Made by a program: the position numbers and the translations under genes. This document shows positions 5,980 through 37,146 of a stretch of 64,000 nt of DNA, in pieces. Origin of the DNA: Clostridiaceae bacterium (GTDB lineage: Bacteria; Bacillota; Clostridia; Saccharofermentanales; Saccharofermentanaceae). The stretch covers positions 1 through 64,000 of the forward strand of contig JAAYCT010000033.1 of assembly GCA_012729635.1 (NCBI GenBank). The letters run 5' to 3'. The notes beneath the pieces are model-generated. The model ran no database searches. It was not told the origin of the DNA and saw nothing but the letters and a program-made list of their open reading frames with translations. The first letter of the stretch is position 1; every line of letters starts with the position of its first letter.

Positions 5980-6266
5980 TATAAATAATAATAAACCGTT
6001 GATTGGGGATAGTATCTTCCCATTAGGCCGTAACAGAGAGCCTCAGAGGATGGAAATGAGGTACGGAAGGGGAAGGGAATGGGCCCGAGAGGGTAGCCCG
6101 AAAGAGAAGTGTGTACGCTTTTTTGAGTAGGAGCTGACGGGGACTTTGCCCGTTATCAGGGAAGCACGCTGTTGGGCGTGAAGGAGTGGGCCGTTTTTTA
6201 CGGTCAATTTGGGTGGTACCGCAGGCGTTTGACTCTTGTCCCATGTTTGGGATGAGAGTCTTTTTG
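5980..6266 (+). promoter_or_regulatory. T-box leader, Trp specifier (UGG), controlling trpB2
   Basis: All core T-box elements are visible. There is an AGTA S-turn (in GATAGTATC near 6010), the AGAGAG distal motif followed by GGATGGAAA, and the 3' side of stem I reading GGAA-UGG with the probable specifier codon UGG at 6080-6082. The T-box sequence AATTTGGGTGGTACCGC covers 6207-6222, and a terminator stem at 6231-6260 is followed by TTTTTG. CTTCCC pairs with GGGAAG to place the UGG in the specifier loop. Uncharged tRNA-Trp should stabilise the antiterminator and switch on trpB2. The upstream end is set from the promoter and is approximate. Confidence 0.92.
6231..6266 (+). terminator. T-box-controlled intrinsic terminator
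   Basis: GACTCTTGTCCCA (6231-6243) pairs, with G-U wobbles, with TGGGATGAGAGTC (6248-6260) and is followed by TTTTTGTTT. It sits immediately after the T-box sequence and is the default OFF state of the leader. Confidence 0.85.
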
Positions 6267-25806: not shown

Positions 25807-26403
25807 ATGGATCTATTGAGAGAGAGAATTATTTCTGAGGGTAGGATCATCGGTACGGATATTCTCAAGGTCGACAGTTTTCTGAACCACCAAATTGACC
25901 CGGCAGTGATGGATGAAATCGGAAGATCCCTATCCGGGGCTTTTTCGGAATCGGGCGTAACAAAGGTACTTACGGTTGAAAGCTCGGGAATCGCTCCGGC
26001 TCTTTCTGTTGCCCGCTTTCTCGGAGTGCCTGCGGTTTTCGCTCGAAAAACGGCCTCCCGCAATTTAGACAGTGACACCTATGTTTCCGGCGTTCATTCC
26101 TATACCAAAGGGGTCGATTATGTTATTCGCGTCAGCAAACGCTACCTTCAAGCCGACGATGTCGTTCTTTTGATTGATGATTTTCTGGCTAAGGGTTGTG
26201 CGCTCAGAGGGTTGATCGATATAGTCGCTCAATCCGGAGCGAAAATAGCCGGCGCGGGAATTGTTATCGAGAAAGGCTTTCAGGAGGGCGGTGCCCTCAT
26301 TCGAGGCATGGGCATCCGGGTTCATTCCCTGGCCATAATAAAGGAAATGTCGGAGAAGGAGAATAGAATTTCCTTCAAGGACGAGAATGACACAAAAGGA
26401 TAG
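25807..26403 (+). CDS. xpt: Xanthine phosphoribosyltransferase
   Basis: This salvage enzyme converts xanthine and PRPP to XMP. The 198 aa sequence closely follows Bacillus Xpt, with KVDSFLNHQIDP near residue 20, ESSGIAPAL near 60 and the PRPP-binding loop VLLIDDFLAKG near 120. The ATG at 25807 aligns with known Xpt N-termini; the upstream start at 25792 is not needed. BMP transporter genes follow after 13 bp, so imported purines probably feed this enzyme. Unlike the Bacillus xpt, no guanine riboswitch is visible. Confidence 0.95.
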   Translation: MDLLRERIISEGRIIGTDILKVDSFLNHQIDPAVMDEIGRSLSGAFSESGVTKVLTVESSGIAPALSVARFLGVPAVFARKTASRNLDSDTYVSGVHSYTKGVDYVIRVSKRYLQADDVVLLIDDFLAKGCALRGLIDIVAQSGAKIAGAGIVIEKGFQEGGALIRGMGIRVHSLAIIKEMSEKENRISFKDENDTKG

Positions 26404-26416
26404 AGGAGGAAGACTT

Positions 26417-27511
26417 ATGAAGAAAGTACTGTCAATGATTCTGGCTGTTCTGATGATATTCGGAATGGCCGCGATCGCCGGTTGCGAGGAGAAAAAGGAC
26501 GAAGCTTTAAAGGTCGGTGTTTTGTATATCTCACCGAAGGACGACGGAGGATATTCTCAGGCGCATGCCGAGGGAATCGCGGAGGCAAAAGCTAAGTTCG
26601 GAGATAAGATTATCGTAAGCGAAATCGAAAATGTCAACGATACCGATGTGACGGCGACCAATAACGCGATCGACAATCTTGTAAACAACGGATGCAAATT
26701 GATTTTTACCACAAGCTACGGATACATGGATCCGACCGAAGCGGCCGCAAAAAAATATCCGGATGTGAAGTTTTGTCACTGCTCCGGATATAAGACGAAC
26801 GACACGAATATGGATGCATATTTTGGTCAGATTGAGACCGGACGGTATCTTGCGGGTATCGTCGCCGGAAAAATGACGAGCAACAATAAGCTCGGTTACG
26901 TTGCGGCATTTCCGATCCCCGAAGTAATTCGTGGAATCAATGCCTATACCCTGGGTGCGAAGTCCGTAAATCCCGACGTAACCGTTCAGGTCGTCTGGAC
27001 CAACACCTGGTTTGATCCCGCAACGGAAAAAGCTGCTGCCGAGGCTCTTTTAGCAGCCGGAGTCGATGTAATGGCTCAGCATCAGGACTCTCCGAGTGCA
27101 ATCGAAGCGGCAGAGGCGGCCGGAGCCTACGCGACCGGTTACGATCTGACCTATTCCGGTGCTCCGGATGCGTACCTTACCGCTCCTTTATGGGGATGGG
27201 GAGTCTATTACACGTATAAGATTCAACAAGTCCTTGACGGGCAGTGGAAGGTGGAGAATTATTGGGGTGGCATGAAGGAAGGCGTCGCCAAACTGGATGA
27301 GCTTTCCGCTCTGGTCAGTGAAGACGCGAAGGCCGCAGTAGAAGCTGCGCGCCCGATGGTAACCGAGCAAGGAAACGCATTTGTTTTCTCCGGTCCGATT
27401 TACAACCAACAGGGGGAATTGATGGTTGCGGAAGGAGAGAGCATTTCTTACGGTGACCAGATGGGTATGAAATGGTTCGTGCAGGGAGTAATCGGAGAAA
27501 TTCCTTCCTAA
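26417..27511 (+). CDS. BMP-family ABC transporter substrate-binding lipoprotein
   Basis: The 364 aa lipoprotein has a signal peptide with lipobox AIAGC (Cys near 23) and the BMP/Med/TmpC pattern (KVGVLYISPKDDGGYSQAHAEG after the linker, TNNAIDNLVNNGCKLIFTTSYGYMDPTEAAAKKYPDVKF, later AGVDVMAQHQDSPSAIEAAEAAG, described here only in part). This family binds purine nucleosides or related ligands outside the membrane. The ATG follows GAGGAGGAAGACTT. Together with the ATPase and two permeases downstream it forms a full importer. Confidence 0.94.
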   Translation: MKKVLSMILAVLMIFGMAAIAGCEEKKDEALKVGVLYISPKDDGGYSQAHAEGIAEAKAKFGDKIIVSEIENVNDTDVTATNNAIDNLVNNGCKLIFTTSYGYMDPTEAAAKKYPDVKFCHCSGYKTNDTNMDAYFGQIETGRYLAGIVAGKMTSNNKLGYVAAFPIPEVIRGINAYTLGAKSVNPDVTVQVVWTNTWFDPATEKAAAEALLAAGVDVMAQHQDSPSAIEAAEAAGAYATGYDLTYSGAPDAYLTAPLWGWGVYYTYKIQQVLDGQWKVENYWGGMKEGVAKLDELSALVSEDAKAAVEAARPMVTEQGNAFVFSGPIYNQQGELMVAEGESISYGDQMGMKWFVQGVIGEIPS

Positions 27512-27535
27512 AAGAAATGATGAAACGATCATTGT

Positions 27536-27569
27536 CGCGGCATCCGGGATACCGATTCCGGATGCCGCG
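27536..27569. other. Hairpin between the binding-protein and ATPase genes
   Basis: CGCGGCATCCGG (27536-27547) and CCGGATGCCGCG (27558-27569) are exact complements around a 10-nt loop that can extend the stem by two more pairs. No T-run follows. Such hairpins after substrate-binding protein genes often stabilise the upstream mRNA or partly stop transcription, giving excess binding protein. That role is inferred here. Confidence 0.75.
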
Positions 27570-27597
27570 AAATGTAAACACAGCGGAGTTTATCGTC

Positions 27598-29256
27598 ATG
27601 AGCGTGAGTTCAAGTTCACCGGCTGAGAATGCTTTTTCCATGAAAGGGATTTCAAAATCCTTCGGTTCGGTATGTGCGAATGAAGGAATCGATTTTGAAG
27701 TTAAAATAGGAGAAATCCACGCATTGCTCGGCGAGAACGGATCCGGAAAAAGCACATTGATGAATATTTTATCCGGAGTGTATCGGCCGGATTGCGGAAA
27801 GATCTCCGTTTTCGGAGAGACCCGCGATTTCCGTTCACCCGGAGACGCAATCCGATGCGGAATTGGTATGGTTTATCAGCATTTTAAACTTGCGGAGTCG
27901 CTTTCCGCTACCGATAATATCATTGCAGGTTTAAGTAAAGGTCAGATTTTTCGCGCGTTACAAACCGAAAAAAGTGATGATCGTCATATTTCGACTATGG
28001 ACCCCGATGTTTCGGTATCCCCGGATCAAAAACAAAGACGAACCGGCACGAATTATATAAGCGATCTGATCAGAAAATTTGCGAAGCGTTTTCATATTGA
28101 TTTTGATCCCGATAAACTGGCATCGCAACTTTCCGTAAGCGAGAAGCAATCGGTTGAGATTATCAAGGTTCTGATCCGAGGGGCGAAAATTCTGATCATG
28201 GATGAACCGACCGCGGTTCTTACGCCGCAAGAAACGAAAAAGTTGTTTTCCGTTCTGAAAAAAATGCGGGATCAGGGTTGTTCTATCGTCTTTATTAGTC
28301 ATAAACTCGGTGAAATCACCGAGTTATGTGATCGCGTGACCGTTCTTCGGAAAGGAAGAAGTGTGGATACCTTGGTCGTATCACAGGTGGATACGTATGA
28401 TTTAATCGAAAAGATGGTCGGCCGAAAAATCGAGCTGGAAATTGTTCGACCGGCACCCAATCCTGAACGACTGGAATGCCTGCGCGTCGAAGGCTTAACC
28501 TATCATGACGAAAAGGGCTTAGCCAAGCTTTCCGATGTTTCCTTTTCAACCTTTTACGGTGAAATCCTCGGTGTTGCGGGATTAGCCGGTAGCGGTCAAA
28601 AGGAGTTATGTGAAGCGATTGCCGGAATCATTCGCCCGTCAAGCGGAAGCATCTCGGTGGACGCGGAGGAAATATCCGGTCTTTCTCCGAGAAGTATAAC
28701 CGCCAAAGGTGTTTCCATGTGCTTTATTCCCGAGGATCGTCTCGGGATGGGGTTGGTTGCTTCCATGGGAATCACTGAAAATGTTTTGCTCAAGGAATAC
28801 GCTTTTCAAAAGGGTATTTTCATTAAAACCGATCGAGCAAGTGAAAAATCCGATCAAATCATCAAGGAGTTGGATATTATGACTCCCGGGGTTCGGCACC
28901 CCGTCCGACTTCTGTCGGGTGGAAATATTCAAAAAGTCATACTCGGAAGAGAAATTCATTTGCACCCGAAATTAATGATTACAGCGTATGCCGTTCGCGG
29001 ATTGGACATTCAGTCTTCGCATACCGTATACCGTTTGCTGAACGAGCAAAAGAAACAAAATGTTTCTGTGTTATATATCGGCGAGGATTTGGATGTATTG
29101 ATTGCCTTTTGTGACCGCATTATGGTCTTATGCCGCGGTGAAAATATGGGGATTCTGGATGCGAATCATACCTCGAAAATTGAAATCGGGCAAATGATGT
29201 CGGGTACCCGGCTGGAAGTGATAAGAACGGGGGTGGACTATGTTTCGAATCGCTAA
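27598..29256 (+). CDS. BMP-type ABC transporter ATPase (two nucleotide-binding domains)
   Basis: The 552 aa protein has two ABC domains in tandem, as in sugar and nucleoside importers of this class. The first has Walker A GENGSGKST, a degenerate signature LSVSEKQ and Walker B ILIMDEPTAVLTPQE. The second has GLAGSGQKEL, signature LLSGGNIQK and a degenerate Walker B region (LMITAYAVRGLD). A polar insertion of about 35-40 residues (about 118-152) lies between the first Walker A region and the signature, explaining the extra length over the usual ~510 aa. The ATG at 27598 is the best fit; the site upstream is only GGAG. Confidence 0.93.
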   Translation: MSVSSSSPAENAFSMKGISKSFGSVCANEGIDFEVKIGEIHALLGENGSGKSTLMNILSGVYRPDCGKISVFGETRDFRSPGDAIRCGIGMVYQHFKLAESLSATDNIIAGLSKGQIFRALQTEKSDDRHISTMDPDVSVSPDQKQRRTGTNYISDLIRKFAKRFHIDFDPDKLASQLSVSEKQSVEIIKVLIRGAKILIMDEPTAVLTPQETKKLFSVLKKMRDQGCSIVFISHKLGEITELCDRVTVLRKGRSVDTLVVSQVDTYDLIEKMVGRKIELEIVRPAPNPERLECLRVEGLTYHDEKGLAKLSDVSFSTFYGEILGVAGLAGSGQKELCEAIAGIIRPSSGSISVDAEEISGLSPRSITAKGVSMCFIPEDRLGMGLVASMGITENVLLKEYAFQKGIFIKTDRASEKSDQIIKELDIMTPGVRHPVRLLSGGNIQKVILGREIHLHPKLMITAYAVRGLDIQSSHTVYRLLNEQKKQNVSVLYIGEDLDVLIAFCDRIMVLCRGENMGILDANHTSKIEIGQMMSGTRLEVIRTGVDYVSNR

Positions 29257-30382
29257 GAGAGAGAAGGCTTCCATAACCGATTCGATTCGATTCCGTTCTC
29301 TGGGATTTCTCGCCGGACTCTTGCTTTCGATGGGTTTTATCGCAGTGCTCGGTTACAACCCCTTTTCTGCTTTGGTTACACTATTGATCGGCGCTTTCGG
29401 AACCGGAACCGGCCTCCGAAACACGCTGACATTTGCGATACCGCTGGCGACAACAGCTCTCGGGTTGTCTGTTGCGTTTCGGATGAAATATTGGAATATC
29501 GGCGGAGAAGGTCAATTGCTTATAGGCGCGACCGCGGCAATGTTCGTTTCTCTCGTAGCGGGAGAAAATACATCCGGATGGATACTCGTACCGATGATGC
29601 TTCTTTTTGGGTTCATCGGCGGAGCCTGGTATGCTTTGATTCCGGGTCTTTTTCGTGTATATTTCCGAACGAACGAGACGCTTTTCACATTGATGATGAA
29701 TTATCTGGCCATCGCATTTGTAAAGTATCTGTACCATGTTCTGTGGAAGGATCCCTTAAAGAGCGGATTTCCGGGAATTCGAAGCATTCAGGAGCAAGCG
29801 GGACTGCCTCGTATTCTCGGTGTCAGTGCCGGGATCATTGTGCCTGTCATACTGATGATTGTCCTTTATGTCCTAATATCACGGACGAAGCCCGGATATG
29901 AGATACGCGTCGTCGGAGAAAGCGAGCCGACCGCACATTATGCCGGAATGAACGTTCAGAAAATAATGGTGGGCGGGATCATTTTGTCCGGCGGAATTGT
30001 CGGACTGGCCGGGGCAGTCAAACTGAGCGGGGAGACGCTTACTTTGACCGAAAGCCTTGGCGGCGGTACAGGATTTACAGCGATAGTCATTGCCTGGCTC
30101 GCAAACCTCTCCGCGCCGATTATTCTCGTTGTTTCTTTTCTGTTTGCCGCTTTGCAACAAGGGGCTCAAATTATTCAACTGCGATTGAATGTCCCTGCCG
30201 CTGTTGCGGAAATCATCAAGGGATTAATGTTGATGTCGTTTCTCGGATCCGAGTTTTTTCTTCGATACCGTATCATTTTTAACAAAAGAGACAAAAGTCA
30301 ATCTTATCCGCAGATTTTATCTGCAAGCCAATCCTCTGATATAGAAACGGATAAGACTCCTGACAAGGAGGTAAAACCATGA
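29240..30382 (+). CDS. BMP-type ABC transporter permease 1
   Basis: This 380 aa integral membrane protein of the branched-chain/ribose-type permease family has about nine membrane segments and the TNETLFTLMMNYLA segment near 135 that is typical of nucleoside permeases. Its ATG overlaps the ATPase stop by 17 bp (GGGGGTG upstream) and its own stop overlaps the next permease as ATGA. A hydrophilic tail of about 30 residues follows the last helix. Confidence 0.92.
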   Translation: MFRIAKREKASITDSIRFRSLGFLAGLLLSMGFIAVLGYNPFSALVTLLIGAFGTGTGLRNTLTFAIPLATTALGLSVAFRMKYWNIGGEGQLLIGATAAMFVSLVAGENTSGWILVPMMLLFGFIGGAWYALIPGLFRVYFRTNETLFTLMMNYLAIAFVKYLYHVLWKDPLKSGFPGIRSIQEQAGLPRILGVSAGIIVPVILMIVLYVLISRTKPGYEIRVVGESEPTAHYAGMNVQKIMVGGIILSGGIVGLAGAVKLSGETLTLTESLGGGTGFTAIVIAWLANLSAPIILVVSFLFAALQQGAQIIQLRLNVPAAVAEIIKGLMLMSFLGSEFFLRYRIIFNKRDKSQSYPQILSASQSSDIETDKTPDKEVKP

Positions 30383-31347
30383 TTTCGATTCTAACGAGTC
30401 CGGACTTCATTTCATCCGCGATTTCATTCTCGGTGATTTTGCTTCTCGGGACGCTTGGGGAATTACTTACGGAACGTGCCGGACACTTGAATCTCGGTGT
30501 AGAGGGCATGATGCTTCTGGGGGCTTCTTTCGGTTATATAGCCGCGGTGAGATCTTCATCTCTTGTTTTTGCACTGGTAGCCGCCTGCCTCGGATCCGGA
30601 CTGGGTGCGCTGATGTACGCATTTTTAACCGTTTCACTTCGCGTTAACCAGACGGTAACCGGACTTGCGTTAACCATGTTCGGAGCTGGACTTGCCAATT
30701 CTGTCGGAAGCAAGGTTGCCGGTACGTCAACACCTCCAAATATCGAAGCATTTTTTTCGTTTCATCCTTTGGAAATGGATTCGCCGAACAGCGCGTTTCT
30801 TCGATTTATCAACAAAGCGTTTTTGTCCCATGATGTATTTGTATATTTTTCGATTGTTCTTGCGGTCCTTTTATGCGTATTTCTGTTTCGGACTCAAGAA
30901 GGATTGGCCCTTCGACTTACCGGCGAAAACACCGCGGCGGCGGATGCGTCCGGGATTAAGGTTACGCGGATAAAATACTTGTATATCGTCATCGGAGGGG
31001 TGCTTTGCGGTCTGGGAGGTCTTTACCTGCCTCTGGTACAACAGGGGTACTGGATTGAAAATATTACTGCAGGACAGGGCTGGCTGGTCGTCGCGCTGGT
31101 TATTTTTGTCCGCTGGCATCCGATAAAGGCCATCGCGGGCTCGTTTGTGTTTGGAGCATTATCTATTCTCGGATCTTCCGTTCAACTGAACGAAAGGCTT
31201 TCGACAATACCATTTTACAATCAATACATCATGTCCATGTTTCCGTTTTTTTTGACCATCGTTGTCCTGGTAATCACTTCCGCTCGAAAAGGGGCGTGGC
31301 GCGGACCCGCGGAGATCGGTCATCCCTATTTTCGAGAGGATCGGTAA
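30379..31347 (+). CDS. BMP-type ABC transporter permease 2
   Basis: The second permease of the importer is 322 aa with about eight to ten membrane segments and the motif GVEGMMLLGASFGYIAA near 45, typical of this family. It begins in an ATGA overlap after AAGGAGGTAAAACC. The five-gene set xpt-BMP-ATPase-permease-permease looks like one transcript for purine nucleoside or base uptake and salvage. Confidence 0.93.
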   Translation: MISILTSPDFISSAISFSVILLLGTLGELLTERAGHLNLGVEGMMLLGASFGYIAAVRSSSLVFALVAACLGSGLGALMYAFLTVSLRVNQTVTGLALTMFGAGLANSVGSKVAGTSTPPNIEAFFSFHPLEMDSPNSAFLRFINKAFLSHDVFVYFSIVLAVLLCVFLFRTQEGLALRLTGENTAAADASGIKVTRIKYLYIVIGGVLCGLGGLYLPLVQQGYWIENITAGQGWLVVALVIFVRWHPIKAIAGSFVFGALSILGSSVQLNERLSTIPFYNQYIMSMFPFFLTIVVLVITSARKGAWRGPAEIGHPYFREDR

Positions 31348-31371: not shown

Positions 31372-31400
31372 TATTTGCGATAAACGGAGGAAGTCAGGAC

Positions 31401-32906
31401 TTGAATAAAGGGCTTATCGATCAAATTGTTAATTTTGTCCGTGAAATATTTGCGGGCCTGGACAGTGGCTACCTTTTTTTCGGTGGACCGGTGGATATTG
31501 TTCGTTATGTGTTTGACATCATTCTGATTACATTTGTCGTTTATCAGCTTCTGAAACTTTTAAGGCAAACCCGGGCGTGGCAGCTTCTTCAGGGATTATT
31601 TCTCATCGTTCTTTTTACGATGGTTTGCAGTATCCTCGGATTAGAAATGGTCGGGTTTATTTTTGATAATATTTTATATGTGGTTGCGATTGCCTTTGTT
31701 ATCATCTTTCAACCCGAATTGCGAAAAGCGTTGGAAACGGTCGGACTGAAATCCTTTTCGACTTTCTCTAATGCATTATCCTCCGAGTATCAAGAGGGTG
31801 CCGATAATATTTCACTAATGATTGAAAATATTGTCGGAGCATGCTCCGAGATGTCAAAATCCTATACCGGGGCATTAATCATTATTGAAAGAAATTCAAA
31901 GCTCAGCGAACTTCTAGAGCAAGAGAATGCCGTGAATCTGGACTCCTCGGTCACCAAAGAAATGTTGACTTCTATTTTTTACAAAGGATCGCCGCTTCAT
32001 GACGGTGCCGTGCTGATTCGCAATAACCGGATTGCTGCGGCTCGCTGCCATGTTCCGCTTTCCGAATCATTGCATACAAAAGTAAGTTTCGGGACTCGGC
32101 ATCGTGCTGCGGTCGGTGCCAGCGAAATGGGCGATGCAATCGCGGTAGCCGTTTCCGAGGAGAGGGGTAAGATTTCCCTTGCGCTGAATGGATGCCTTTA
32201 TGAGATGCGGGGAGGAGAGGAACTCAAAAGAAACCTTCTCTATGTTTTTGGGATCGCGGGAGCGCCCGGAAAGAACCGCCGAAAAAGCAGAAGAATCACA
32301 AACCCTTTCCCAAAACGTGGTTCGGTCTCTGTCGCTCACAGTGCGGGGAATGTTGATGAAATTATTCGCAGCAAGGGATCTGATTTAGTGGACGGTGAAA
32401 TTGTTGCCGTTTCTGCGGTGAATGCAACCTGTGCTTCGGATTCTTCGGAAAAAGTGACGGATCCGGTTTCGGAATTGCCGATTGCCGCAAAAAAGTCGGA
32501 GTTGGAATTCAGAAGAAGCATTCCGAAAAAGATTGCTTATATATTGGCCTCGTTTCTGATCTCGTTAAGCCTTTGGATGTACATCCAAATCAATACCAAT
32601 CCGGTAGAGATGAAGCAAATAACGGTTCCTCTACAGTTCCGTTCGGAAGGTGTTTTAGAGAGCAAGGGATTGGAAACGACCGACTATACCATTCAGAATG
32701 TCAATATATCCATTGTCGGACGAAAAAATGTTATTGATGATTTTTCGGACACCGATATCGGCGCATATATTGATTTTTCCCCGATTACCGATGCCGGAGT
32801 ATACACACTGCCTATTGATATTTCTTCACAAAAAAATGTATACTATCGCGTGGAGTTCCAAAACCCGGAAAGCATAGCGGTCGTTATCTATCATTCCGAT
32901 GAATAA
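31401..32906 (+). CDS. cdaA: Diadenylate cyclase CdaA fused to CdaR (YbbR domain)
   Basis: One continuous 501 aa reading frame carries a membrane diadenylate cyclase and its usual regulator. Residues about 25-105 hold three membrane helices. Residues about 105-290 form the DAC domain with the catalytic DGA (in LHDGAVLI, near 201) and RHRAA (near 232), making c-di-AMP from two ATP. After a polar linker (about 290-370), a new membrane helix (about 377-395) leads to one YbbR/CdaR domain (about 400-490). In most Bacillota these are separate genes cdaA and cdaR. The TTG start follows GGAGGAAGTCAGGAC. glmM follows after 21 bp. Confidence 0.92.
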   Translation: MNKGLIDQIVNFVREIFAGLDSGYLFFGGPVDIVRYVFDIILITFVVYQLLKLLRQTRAWQLLQGLFLIVLFTMVCSILGLEMVGFIFDNILYVVAIAFVIIFQPELRKALETVGLKSFSTFSNALSSEYQEGADNISLMIENIVGACSEMSKSYTGALIIIERNSKLSELLEQENAVNLDSSVTKEMLTSIFYKGSPLHDGAVLIRNNRIAAARCHVPLSESLHTKVSFGTRHRAAVGASEMGDAIAVAVSEERGKISLALNGCLYEMRGGEELKRNLLYVFGIAGAPGKNRRKSRRITNPFPKRGSVSVAHSAGNVDEIIRSKGSDLVDGEIVAVSAVNATCASDSSEKVTDPVSELPIAAKKSELEFRRSIPKKIAYILASFLISLSLWMYIQINTNPVEMKQITVPLQFRSEGVLESKGLETTDYTIQNVNISIVGRKNVIDDFSDTDIGAYIDFSPITDAGVYTLPIDISSQKNVYYRVEFQNPESIAVVIYHSDE

Positions 32907-32927: not shown

Positions 32928-34283
32928 ATGAGTCGATTATTTGGTACGGACGGAGTTCGCGGTATAGCCAACAGTGAATTAACACCGGATCTTGCTTACA
33001 AGTTGGGGTTTGCAGGGGCAAGGGTTTTGGCGGTGAGCTCGGATATAAAACCGACATTGCTGATCGGGATGGATACGCGAATCTCTTGTAATATGCTTGA
33101 AGCCGCACTCGCGGCGGGTATATGCTCCGCGGGAGCCGACGTAGTATTATGCGGTGTGTTGCCGACGCCGGCTATCGCTTACCTGACGTCAAAGTACAAA
33201 TATGATGCAGGAGTAATGATCTCCGCATCACACAATTCATACGAATATAACGGAATCAAGTTTTTCTCGGGCAACGGACTAAAATTATCCGATGAGATCG
33301 AGGATGAAATCGAGCGGACCGTCAACGAATATGATATTTATTCCAAAAGCCGGCCGGTCGGAGAAGATGTTGGTACCGTGATTCGCAGACCGGAATCCGC
33401 AAGACAATATGTCGAACATCTGAAACGGAGAATGAGTGTTGATCTTTCCGGAATGAGAATTGCCATGGACTGTGCCAACGGTGCTGCCAGTGCCATCGCC
33501 CCTTCCTTATTTGAAGATTTGGGTGCGACAGTGATCGCTATCGGAAACACCCCGAACGGACTCAACATCAATAAAAACTGCGGATCAACGCATTTAGAGC
33601 AGTTATCTATGACCGTCATTTCTGAGAAGTGCGATATCGGTCTGGCTTTTGACGGGGATGCGGATCGTTTTCTCGGGATTGATGAAACCGGGAAAGTGAT
33701 TGATGGTGATGTTATCATGTCGATTATCGCGTCGGATATGAAGGAAAACGGAGAACTGAATTCCGATACCATCGTTGTCACAGTGATGAGCAATCTCGGC
33801 CTGGACATTATGGCCGAGAAAAACGGGATTGTACTCGAAAAAACCAAAGTCGGTGACCGGTACGTACTCGAGAGAATGCTCGAAAAGGATTACAACATCG
33901 GCGGTGAGCAATCCGGACATGTCATACTACTCGATCACGCGACGACGGGTGACGGGATATTGACGGCGCTGGCTTTACTGAAGGCTCTCTATCGCAAAGG
34001 ATTGAAGCTTTCCGAGGCTTCGAAGATTATCCGTATCCTTCCTCAAGTCCTCATGTCGGCAAAGGTGAAGAACGAAGACAAGACGAAGGTAATGGAGTTC
34101 GGTTTGCTAATGTCAACCATCGAAAAATACGAAGAACAACTAAACGGCAAGGGCCGCATACTGGTTCGTGCTTCCGGCACGGAGCCGATTATCCGCGTAA
34201 TGATTGAAGGGGAGGACGAGGAAGAAATCTCCCTGATGGCCAGAGATTTGGTATCGATCATTCAGAAGAATTTCATCGTATAG
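32928..34283 (+). CDS. glmM: Phosphoglucosamine mutase
   Basis: This enzyme converts glucosamine-6-phosphate to glucosamine-1-phosphate for UDP-GlcNAc and peptidoglycan. At 451 aa it has family length and starts with the typical LFGTDGVRG. The phosphoserine loop is MISASHNSYEYNG (near 100), the metal loop is DGDADR (near 243) and the C-terminal phosphate site is RASGTEPIIRVM. The ATG follows AACGGAGGCAAAACGG. GlmM is known to bind and restrain CdaA in Bacillota, and the cda-glmM adjacency is kept here. Confidence 0.97.
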   Translation: MSRLFGTDGVRGIANSELTPDLAYKLGFAGARVLAVSSDIKPTLLIGMDTRISCNMLEAALAAGICSAGADVVLCGVLPTPAIAYLTSKYKYDAGVMISASHNSYEYNGIKFFSGNGLKLSDEIEDEIERTVNEYDIYSKSRPVGEDVGTVIRRPESARQYVEHLKRRMSVDLSGMRIAMDCANGAASAIAPSLFEDLGATVIAIGNTPNGLNINKNCGSTHLEQLSMTVISEKCDIGLAFDGDADRFLGIDETGKVIDGDVIMSIIASDMKENGELNSDTIVVTVMSNLGLDIMAEKNGIVLEKTKVGDRYVLERMLEKDYNIGGEQSGHVILLDHATTGDGILTALALLKALYRKGLKLSEASKIIRILPQVLMSAKVKNEDKTKVMEFGLLMSTIEKYEEQLNGKGRILVRASGTEPIIRVMIEGEDEEEISLMARDLVSIIQKNFIV

Positions 34284-34312: not shown

Positions 34313-34330
34313 AGCGCGGATAAGCGCGCT
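34313..34330. other. Short stem-loop between glmM and glmS
   Basis: AGCGCG (34313-34318) and CGCGCT (34325-34330) can pair around GATAAG. It is short and lacks a strong T-run. The 85-bp gap is too small for a glmS ribozyme, and none of its conserved core is seen. Confidence 0.35.
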
Positions 34331-34368
34331 TGATTTCATATCATTTTCCAAGTGATTCAGGAGGCTTT

Positions 34369-36234
34369 ATGTGCGGCATTGTAGGTTATGTCGGGAAAAG
34401 ATTCGCTATCCCGATACTGATTCGCGGACTTAAGAAACTGGAGTACAGAGGATACGACTCTGCCGGAGTAACATTCCTTGAAAACGGGCATCTTCGTGTA
34501 ATTAAAAAACAAGGACGTATCGACGTTCTTGAAAATACACTGAAGGAACTGAATTACGAAACCGCTTCGGAAGAATCTTCTGCTCCACCGGTTAAAATCG
34601 GCATGGGACACACCCGATGGGCGACACACGGTGTTCCGAGTGATGAGAATGCCCACCCTCATCTTTCGGAACAAAGACATGTCTGTGTGATTCATAACGG
34701 TATTATTGAAAATCATGTCGAGCTTCGCAGTTTTCTTATCGATAAGGGTGTTCATTTTTTATCGGAGACGGACTCTGAAGTGGCCGCTCATCTGATAGAA
34801 TATCATTATTTGACAGACTGTCATGCGGATATAATGAGTGCGGTTCAAGCCGCACTGCTCGAAATCGAAGGCTCGTATGCGCTGGTTGTTCTATGTACGG
34901 AGCATCCGGACCTGCTGATTGCCGCCAAAAAGGATAATCCGCTCATTATCGGGCTCGGCTCCGGTGAAAACTATATCGCCTCGGATATTCCGGCACTGAT
35001 TGAATATACTCGGGATGTTCTCATCGTTGAAGACAACGAAATCGCGGTTATCAAGGCGGATTCGGTACATCTTTATACGGTACATGGTCAAATCGTTAAC
35101 AGAAACACGATTTCCGTCGATTGGGATTCGGAGGCCGCCGAAAAAGGCGGGTTCGAGCATTTTATGATGAAGGAAATCTTCGAGGAGCCGTCAGCGATAA
35201 AAGCGACACTTTCTTCGAGAATTCGATCGAATCGTGTTGTTCTTGATGATATTCCGCTGGATCGGGACCGTATTTTACAAGCTTCACGGATACATTTTGT
35301 TGCATGCGGAACGGCATATCACGCCGGGTGCGTCGGAAAAAATGTAATCGAAAAATTATGCAGAATACCGGTTGAAGCCGATGTTGCCTCGGAATTCCGA
35401 TACAAGGATCCGATTATCGACGAGAATTCGATTGTCGTCATTATCAGTCAGTCCGGTGAAACGCTTGATACGCTGGCCGCGATGCGTGAGGCGAAAAAAC
35501 GCGGAGCACTGACCATTTCGATTGTGAACGTTATTGGCAGTTCGATTGCACGCGAATCCGATTATGTAATGTATACTGCAGCAGGACCCGAGATATCCGT
35601 TGCTTCCACCAAGGCATACCTGACACAGTTGTCATGTATTTATCTCTTGGCTCTATATATTGCTTCGTTGATCGGAAGTATCTCGTCGGAAGAGTATGAC
35701 CATTACATAAAGGAAATGCTCCGGCTTCCGGAGTTGATCGGAAAAACACTTGAAAAGCAGTCCGAAATCCAACGGTTTGCTTCTGAGCATTTCAACGCCA
35801 AAAGCATATTTTTTATCGGGCGCGGGCTGGACTATTATCTTTCTATGGAATCCTCTCTGAAACTCAAGGAGATTTCATATATTCACTCCGAGGCATATCC
35901 GGGCGGAGAATTAAAACACGGAACAATCGCCTTGATTGAGAAGGGCACGTTGGTTGTCTGTTCTTTGACTCAGGATCAACTCATGGAAAAAATGATTTCA
36001 AACATCTCTGAGGTGAAAGCCAGAGGAGCCATTGTTCTCGGAATTACAACCGAGAATCAGGAAAAAGCGATACGGGCTTGTGACGAAGTTTTCACGATTC
36101 CTCCGATCCATCCTGTTTTGGCTCCGATGCTCGCAATTACACCGAGCCAGTTGTTTGCATATTATATGGCCGTTAACAAAGGTTGCGACGTGGATAAGCC
36201 GAGAAATCTTGCCAAAAGCGTTACGGTCGAATAA
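34369..36234 (+). CDS. glmS: Glutamine-fructose-6-phosphate aminotransferase (isomerising)
   Basis: This enzyme makes glucosamine-6-phosphate from fructose-6-phosphate and glutamine. The ATG at 34369 follows CAGGAGGCTTT and places the catalytic Cys directly after Met (MCGIVGYVG), as required for an N-terminal nucleophile amidase. The 621 aa protein has the glutaminase domain (about 1-240) and two SIS sugar-isomerase domains (CGTAYHAG, SQSGETLDT; later GRGLDYYLSMESSLKLKEIS). The C-terminal LAKSVTVE is typical. It completes the glmM-glmS pair next to the c-di-AMP cyclase. Confidence 0.98.
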   Translation: MCGIVGYVGKRFAIPILIRGLKKLEYRGYDSAGVTFLENGHLRVIKKQGRIDVLENTLKELNYETASEESSAPPVKIGMGHTRWATHGVPSDENAHPHLSEQRHVCVIHNGIIENHVELRSFLIDKGVHFLSETDSEVAAHLIEYHYLTDCHADIMSAVQAALLEIEGSYALVVLCTEHPDLLIAAKKDNPLIIGLGSGENYIASDIPALIEYTRDVLIVEDNEIAVIKADSVHLYTVHGQIVNRNTISVDWDSEAAEKGGFEHFMMKEIFEEPSAIKATLSSRIRSNRVVLDDIPLDRDRILQASRIHFVACGTAYHAGCVGKNVIEKLCRIPVEADVASEFRYKDPIIDENSIVVIISQSGETLDTLAAMREAKKRGALTISIVNVIGSSIARESDYVMYTAAGPEISVASTKAYLTQLSCIYLLALYIASLIGSISSEEYDHYIKEMLRLPELIGKTLEKQSEIQRFASEHFNAKSIFFIGRGLDYYLSMESSLKLKEISYIHSEAYPGGELKHGTIALIEKGTLVVCSLTQDQLMEKMISNISEVKARGAIVLGITTENQEKAIRACDEVFTIPPIHPVLAPMLAITPSQLFAYYMAVNKGCDVDKPRNLAKSVTVE

Positions 36235-36279: not shown

Positions 36280-37146
36280 TTAATCATTTTCCAGAACTTC
36301 ACGGTAATGACTCAGCAACTCCATCTGATCTTCGGGAAGGGAAGGATACTGAGGATCGATTTTTCGGAGTGTTTGCAGAAGGATCTCGCTGACGAGCGTT
36401 CTGGCAAACCATTTTCGATCGGCGGGAACGACATACCAGGGTGCATATTCGGTAGCGGTGTTTTGTATCATCTCTTCAAATACCCTCTGGTATTCATCCC
36501 AGTGTTTTCTCTCATCCAAATCACCCGCCGAAAACTTCCAGTTTTTTGCCGGATCGTCGATTCTCGTAAGTATTCGTTTTTTCTGTTCGTCCTTGGAAAG
36601 ATGCAGAAAGATTTTAATCATTACAATACCGTTTTCGTGCAGGTATTTCTCATAATCATTAATTTGTCGATATCTTTCTTTCCAAAGGTTCTTGGTCAAT
36701 CGGTCTTTCGGTAATTGCTGTTTCATGGGCAAATCATGAACCTTAGCAACAATAACTTCCTCATAGTGAGAACGGTTAAAAACCCCGATGGTTCCGCGCT
36801 GCGGGAGTTGACGACTGATTCTCCACAGATAATCGTGGTCCAGTTCTTCGGAGGAAGGTGCTTTGAAGCTCCGGACATGACATCCTTGAGGGTTAAGACC
36901 GCTGGTGACATGTTTTATCGTCCCGTCTTTCCCGGCGGCATCGGTAGCCTGAAGAACGATCAGAACACTGTGCGTGTTTTGTGCATATAACTTATCCTGA
37001 AGCTCGGCTGACTTCGCCGTGTTTTCGGAAAGCTTTTTTTCAATTTTTGAGCGATCTTTTTTATTATGACCGAGCAACTCATCGCACTTGTTCGGATCAA
37101 GCTTGAAACCTTTCCCGCTTTTGACGCAGATAGAAGAGATATCCAT
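36280..37146 (-). CDS. Polyphosphate kinase 2 family protein
   Basis: This 288 aa PPK2-family enzyme uses polyphosphate to phosphorylate nucleotides (AMP or nucleoside diphosphates, depending on class). It has Walker A DAAGKDGT (near 74), the lid and Walker B region FNRSHYEEV (near 123), and a conserved RFLxR-like ILTRIDDPAKNWKF stretch. The class cannot be set with certainty from motifs alone. On the - strand, its ATG follows AAAAAAGGAGTCGACCC, with TATAAT at 37172-37177 upstream. It is divergent from the hexapeptide-repeat gene and convergent with glmS. Confidence 0.93.
   Translation of the reverse strand: MDISSICVKSGKGFKLDPNKCDELLGHNKKDRSKIEKKLSENTAKSAELQDKLYAQNTHSVLIVLQATDAAGKDGTIKHVTSGLNPQGCHVRSFKAPSSEELDHDYLWRISRQLPQRGTIGVFNRSHYEEVIVAKVHDLPMKQQLPKDRLTKNLWKERYRQINDYEKYLHENGIVMIKIFLHLSKDEQKKRILTRIDDPAKNWKFSAGDLDERKHWDEYQRVFEEMIQNTATEYAPWYVVPADRKWFARTLVSEILLQTLRKIDPQYPSLPEDQMELLSHYREVLEND

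Follow-up and report, generated by a model that had tools for sequence, protein, structure and literature searches.

The gene at positions 31401–32906 of the forward strand is very probably a single-chain CdaA–CdaR: a cyclase of the membrane that carries its own extracytoplasmic YbbR domain, derived from an old, single fusion. The domain architecture, its conservation throughout the order, its single origin among the proteins sampled and the standing of the fused frame as the only DAC and the only YbbR protein of its genome were established by computation. Coordinates refer to the window, the whole stretch of 64,000 nucleotides that was analysed, and all features of the fused gene lie on its forward strand.

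Architecture of the fused protein

The frame opens with TTG and runs for 501 residues without interruption, its coordinates including the stop codon. A Shine–Dalgarno-like GGAGGA (31386–31391) precedes the start, with its GGAGG ten bases 5′ of the TTG codon. Re-reading the frame bore out the coordinates, length and single open frame given in the first-pass annotation, and Pfam searches and helix prediction agree with the fusion it described, in which one chain carries a DAC domain, a linker, a second membrane anchor and one YbbR domain. A scan for promoters and terminators returned no more sites than chance warrants.

The N-terminal part corresponds to CdaA. The CdaA membrane domain (PF19293; residues 35–106, positions 31503–31718) comprises three predicted helices, and hydropathy places the four helices of the whole chain at residues 33–51, 66–84, 89–107 and 378–396. 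It is followed by the DAC diadenylate cyclase domain (PF02457; residues 147–264, positions 31839–32192, E value of 1.9e-37). Sequence reading and alignment locate the DGA motif at residues 201–203 (32001–32009) and the RHR motif at residues 233–235 (32097–32105); the DGA and RHRAA noted earlier are thus present, as HDGA and TRHRAA. The protein passes the CdaA equivalog model TIGR00159 (212.5 bits against a cut-off of 188.8) and scores well below the cut-off of every DisA, CdaS and CdaM equivalog or exception model. The closest fold to the DAC domain of the whole-chain AlphaFold2 model is that of Bacillus subtilis CdaA (PDB entry 8ogk), in a model that is poor overall (pLDDT of 57.6), with an unreliable membrane part and uninformative helix packing. 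HDGA occurs in all 20 unfused cyclases compared; HDGG takes its place in 11 of the 68 fused copies (L005, L006, L015, L025 and L028–L034).

Beyond the DAC domain lies a cytoplasmic linker of about 100 residues (32253–32531) that is variable and probably disordered. It has low identity among relatives, a length ranging from 73 to 168 residues between fixed motifs, and a pLDDT mostly of 22–32 over residues 291–370 of the whole-chain model. The fourth transmembrane helix (32532–32588), assigned from hydropathy and profile comparison, carries LWMYIQINTNP and is the counterpart of the N-terminal anchor of CdaR. In an alignment of 68 distinct copies, nothing in the CdaR part is better conserved than the W-x-[YF]-x-Q...NP pattern of this helix. 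An Arg/Lys-rich stretch precedes this helix and four helices are predicted, in agreement with the earlier suggestion that the YbbR domain faces outward.

The single YbbR domain (32604–32894) is the counterpart of the first YbbR domain of CdaR by Pfam, profile and fold matching. The Pfam YbbR match (residues 421–495) scores 20.6 bits in a single-protein search (E value of 0.00057), under the cut-off of 22.3, and clears it at 24.1 bits in the genome-wide search; it is above cut-off in two of three relatives tested (25.8–30.5 bits) and undetected in the third (L003). When the YbbR part was modelled alone (AlphaFold2, residues 396–501, five-sequence alignment), the pLDDT was 85.7, and the top three PDB matches were the YbbR-family structures 3lyw, 4qdy and 2l3u. 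Two fused proteins of family f4 (L073 and L075) have extra C-terminal tails after YbbR, that of L073 being long and Ser/Thr-rich.

Production of a separate YbbR protein from an internal start was considered and rejected. As the first-pass annotation had stated for the region near YbbR, no in-frame start with a plausible ribosome site was found ahead of the fourth helix in the linker of this protein, and no internal start is conserved among the linkers of relatives.

Constraint along the chain

Compared with two relatives of the same genus, identity is 89% in the DAC domain, 63–66% in the YbbR part and 53% in the linker. In the same comparison, in which synonymous sites are near saturation, nonsynonymous change is low in the transmembrane domain, DAC, helix 4 and YbbR and highest in the linker, and dN in YbbR is well below dS. 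The linker is under the weakest constraint of the chain, yet its frame is always kept.

These values bear on two other readings of the gene. The YbbR domain might no longer be regulatory, surviving as a degenerate remnant that merely supplies an extra membrane anchor; its faster divergence than DAC within the genus and the disappearance of YbbR domains 2–4 point that way. We regard this as unlikely, since every complete copy that was read has retained the domain, its dN is well below its dS, its fold is confidently recovered by the model and its PDB matches, and a bare anchor would have no need of a conserved domain of 97 residues. Somewhat less probable still is that one chain is translated and then cut in the linker, which would release the cyclase and the YbbR part as two proteins and leave the fusion itself of little importance. 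A long, predicted disordered linker of such variable length would suit a cut; however, it contains no conserved site, and cleavage by itself would not call for the frame to persist throughout the order, as it has.

Conservation across the order

A DAC domain was found in 122 of the 128 genomes of the order that were sampled, one in each, and its frame is at least 408 residues long in 118 of the 122. The four short frames all lie at contig ends: one contig stops shortly past the match (G047), one gene has its halves on two contigs (G022), and in two cases the frame starts right where the contig does (G463 and G473). One genome that is 96% complete (G041) has no DAC match, which could reflect a sequence gap or a true loss of c-di-AMP synthesis.

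With the Pfam YbbR model, a single copy per genome was detected in 60 of the 128, about half of the sample being missed. In 57 of these 60, YbbR lies on the contig of the DAC match in a frame of equal length, and the remaining three involve broken contigs. Despite the misses, YbbR could be placed by alignment in the fused copies read. No second YbbR protein was detected in any genome of the order, though with a model of this sensitivity. Named relatives are Saccharofermentans sp. and Ruminococcaceae bacterium YAD3003.

A stop between the two domains in related genomes had been proposed as the observation that would undo the fusion; instead, the frame is continuous throughout the order. The idea that an assembly or base-calling error joined two overlapping genes, which a single indel could do given the cdaA/cdaR overlap in unfused relatives, and for which the 44 contigs of the genome containing the window leave room, is refuted to the point of negligible probability by YbbR lying in the DAC frame and by frame continuity in those 118 independently assembled genomes, near-complete ones of one to three contigs (G036, G039 and G048) among them.

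Extent and origin of the fusion

Outside the order, one genome from each of about 78 further families of the class yielded no fusion, their DAC frames reaching at most 381 residues. Nor was one present among the CdaA frames read from the matches listed for a phylum sample of 129 genomes, in which the weaker, DisA-range matches include a few longer frames of up to 464 residues. Two long CdaA frames in the phylum sample (G596 and G564) proved to be upstream open-frame extensions without YbbR.

When 61 fused cyclases were placed in a tree with 20 unfused ones, a branch of length 1.2 and support 100/100 set all the fused proteins apart. The simplest reading is that, within the sampled set, the fusion arose a single time and did so before the families of the order split.

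In all 17 unfused loci examined, the last 4–26 nt of cdaA are also the first of cdaR (taking the best-placed start in each), so that one frame change suffices to join the two genes. Profile comparison matches the C terminus of the fused protein to the beginning of CdaR, that is, its helix and first YbbR domain, and only weakly to later repeats; the three unfused CdaR proteins tested have three or four YbbR matches each. By this comparison, the fused form has lost YbbR repeats 2–4, and its CdaR part is truncated as well as fused. The fusion would have arisen by a frame change at overlapping cdaA and cdaR genes, together with loss of these repeats, before the order diversified.

Genomic setting

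The fused gene is followed, 21 nt after its stop, by glmM (32928–34283, +), which encodes phosphoglucosamine mutase with PGM_PMM domains I–IV, and then by glmS (34330–36234, +), which encodes glucosamine-6-phosphate synthase with SIS and GATase domains. GlmM is an inhibitor of CdaA in other Firmicutes. In each of the four families, glmM directly follows the fused gene at most loci. In genera g2 and g4, however, the majority of members have no glmM within 1.5 kb; the loci lacking an adjacent copy (L014–L016, L018–L030, L032, L034 and L035) belong mostly to these two genera.

The genome encodes a PgpH-type phosphodiesterase, and neither a recognisable GdpP nor a c-di-AMP riboswitch was found in it. 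Two DHH proteins were considered as GdpP and rejected, as their sequence and context suggest a RecJ and an NrnA/DhhP-type protein.

Upstream, positions 26387–31347 hold the genes of a probable nucleoside-type transporter, made up of a Bmp-type substrate-binding protein, an ABC ATPase and two permeases; the last of them stops 53 nt short of the fused gene. The window also contains a T-box leader (RF00230) at 5990–6246, and a polyphosphate kinase 2 gene (PPK2) at 36280–37146 on the reverse strand, convergent with glmS.

Proposed working

The helices 1–3 and the cytoplasmic DAC domain would act as CdaA, with a predicted activity of turning two molecules of ATP into c-di-AMP. The flexible cytoplasmic linker would bring the chain back to the membrane, where helix 4 would serve as the CdaR anchor and place one YbbR domain outside the cell. 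Such a long, flexible linker would allow the topologies of both CdaA and CdaR to be kept on joining, and an uncleaved chain would fix the stoichiometry of cyclase to regulator at 1:1.

CdaR binds the membrane region of CdaA through the membrane helices and exposes three or four YbbR domains on the exterior of the cell (PMC10243994), and it can activate or repress CdaA depending on conditions, whereas GlmM inhibits the DAC domain (PMC8573169). By analogy, helix 4 may pack against the CdaA helices and YbbR may tune the cyclase according to the state of the envelope through these helix contacts, with GlmM acting on the DAC domain from inside.

The mode of regulation of CdaA by CdaR 'remains unclear' (PMC8573169). 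A one-chain form with one YbbR domain, serving a whole order as the sole source of c-di-AMP, supports CdaR as an obligate partner of CdaA and points to the first YbbR domain of CdaR as its essential part. We suggest tentatively that the entire order signals through one ancient single-chain cyclase-sensor, that a single extracytoplasmic YbbR domain suffices for the job of CdaR and that the protein represents the minimal natural CdaA–CdaR unit. The compact fused protein should be useful for structural work on the cyclase–regulator complex.

Comparison with known systems

The fused protein resembles CdaA (DacA, TIGR00159) in its three N-terminal helices, its DAC domain with DGA and RHR motifs, and its glmM neighbour. 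It differs from CdaA in not ending with the DAC domain, to which the linker, the fourth helix and YbbR are added, and in the long stem branch (1.2) that bears the fused cyclases. With CdaR (YbbR) it shares a YbbR domain preceded by the N-terminal helix of that protein, with its LWxY...NP motif; however, CdaR is a separate protein with three or four YbbR domains, of which one, fused, is found here.

The novelty implied for such a fusion by the first-pass annotation was overstated. CdaA–CdaR fusions are known in some streptococcal strains (A5LQF8, E1M7C3 and V8IIN0; PMC10243994, 2023), and a 'DacA-YbbR fusion' has been reported 'in some bacteria' (PMC4342491). In the literature searched, no text on an order-wide, single-YbbR fusion was found, although surveys of DAC architectures may already list one; order-wide fixation and reduction to one YbbR domain are apparently new. 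The streptococcal fusions and the DacA–YbbR fusion likewise join cyclase and CdaR in one continuous chain. By their published description, these are large fusions that occur in some strains, whereas the present one extends through the whole order, goes back to one event in the sampled set and retains a single YbbR domain. In the tree of cyclases, the clade of the order looks like an event of its own.
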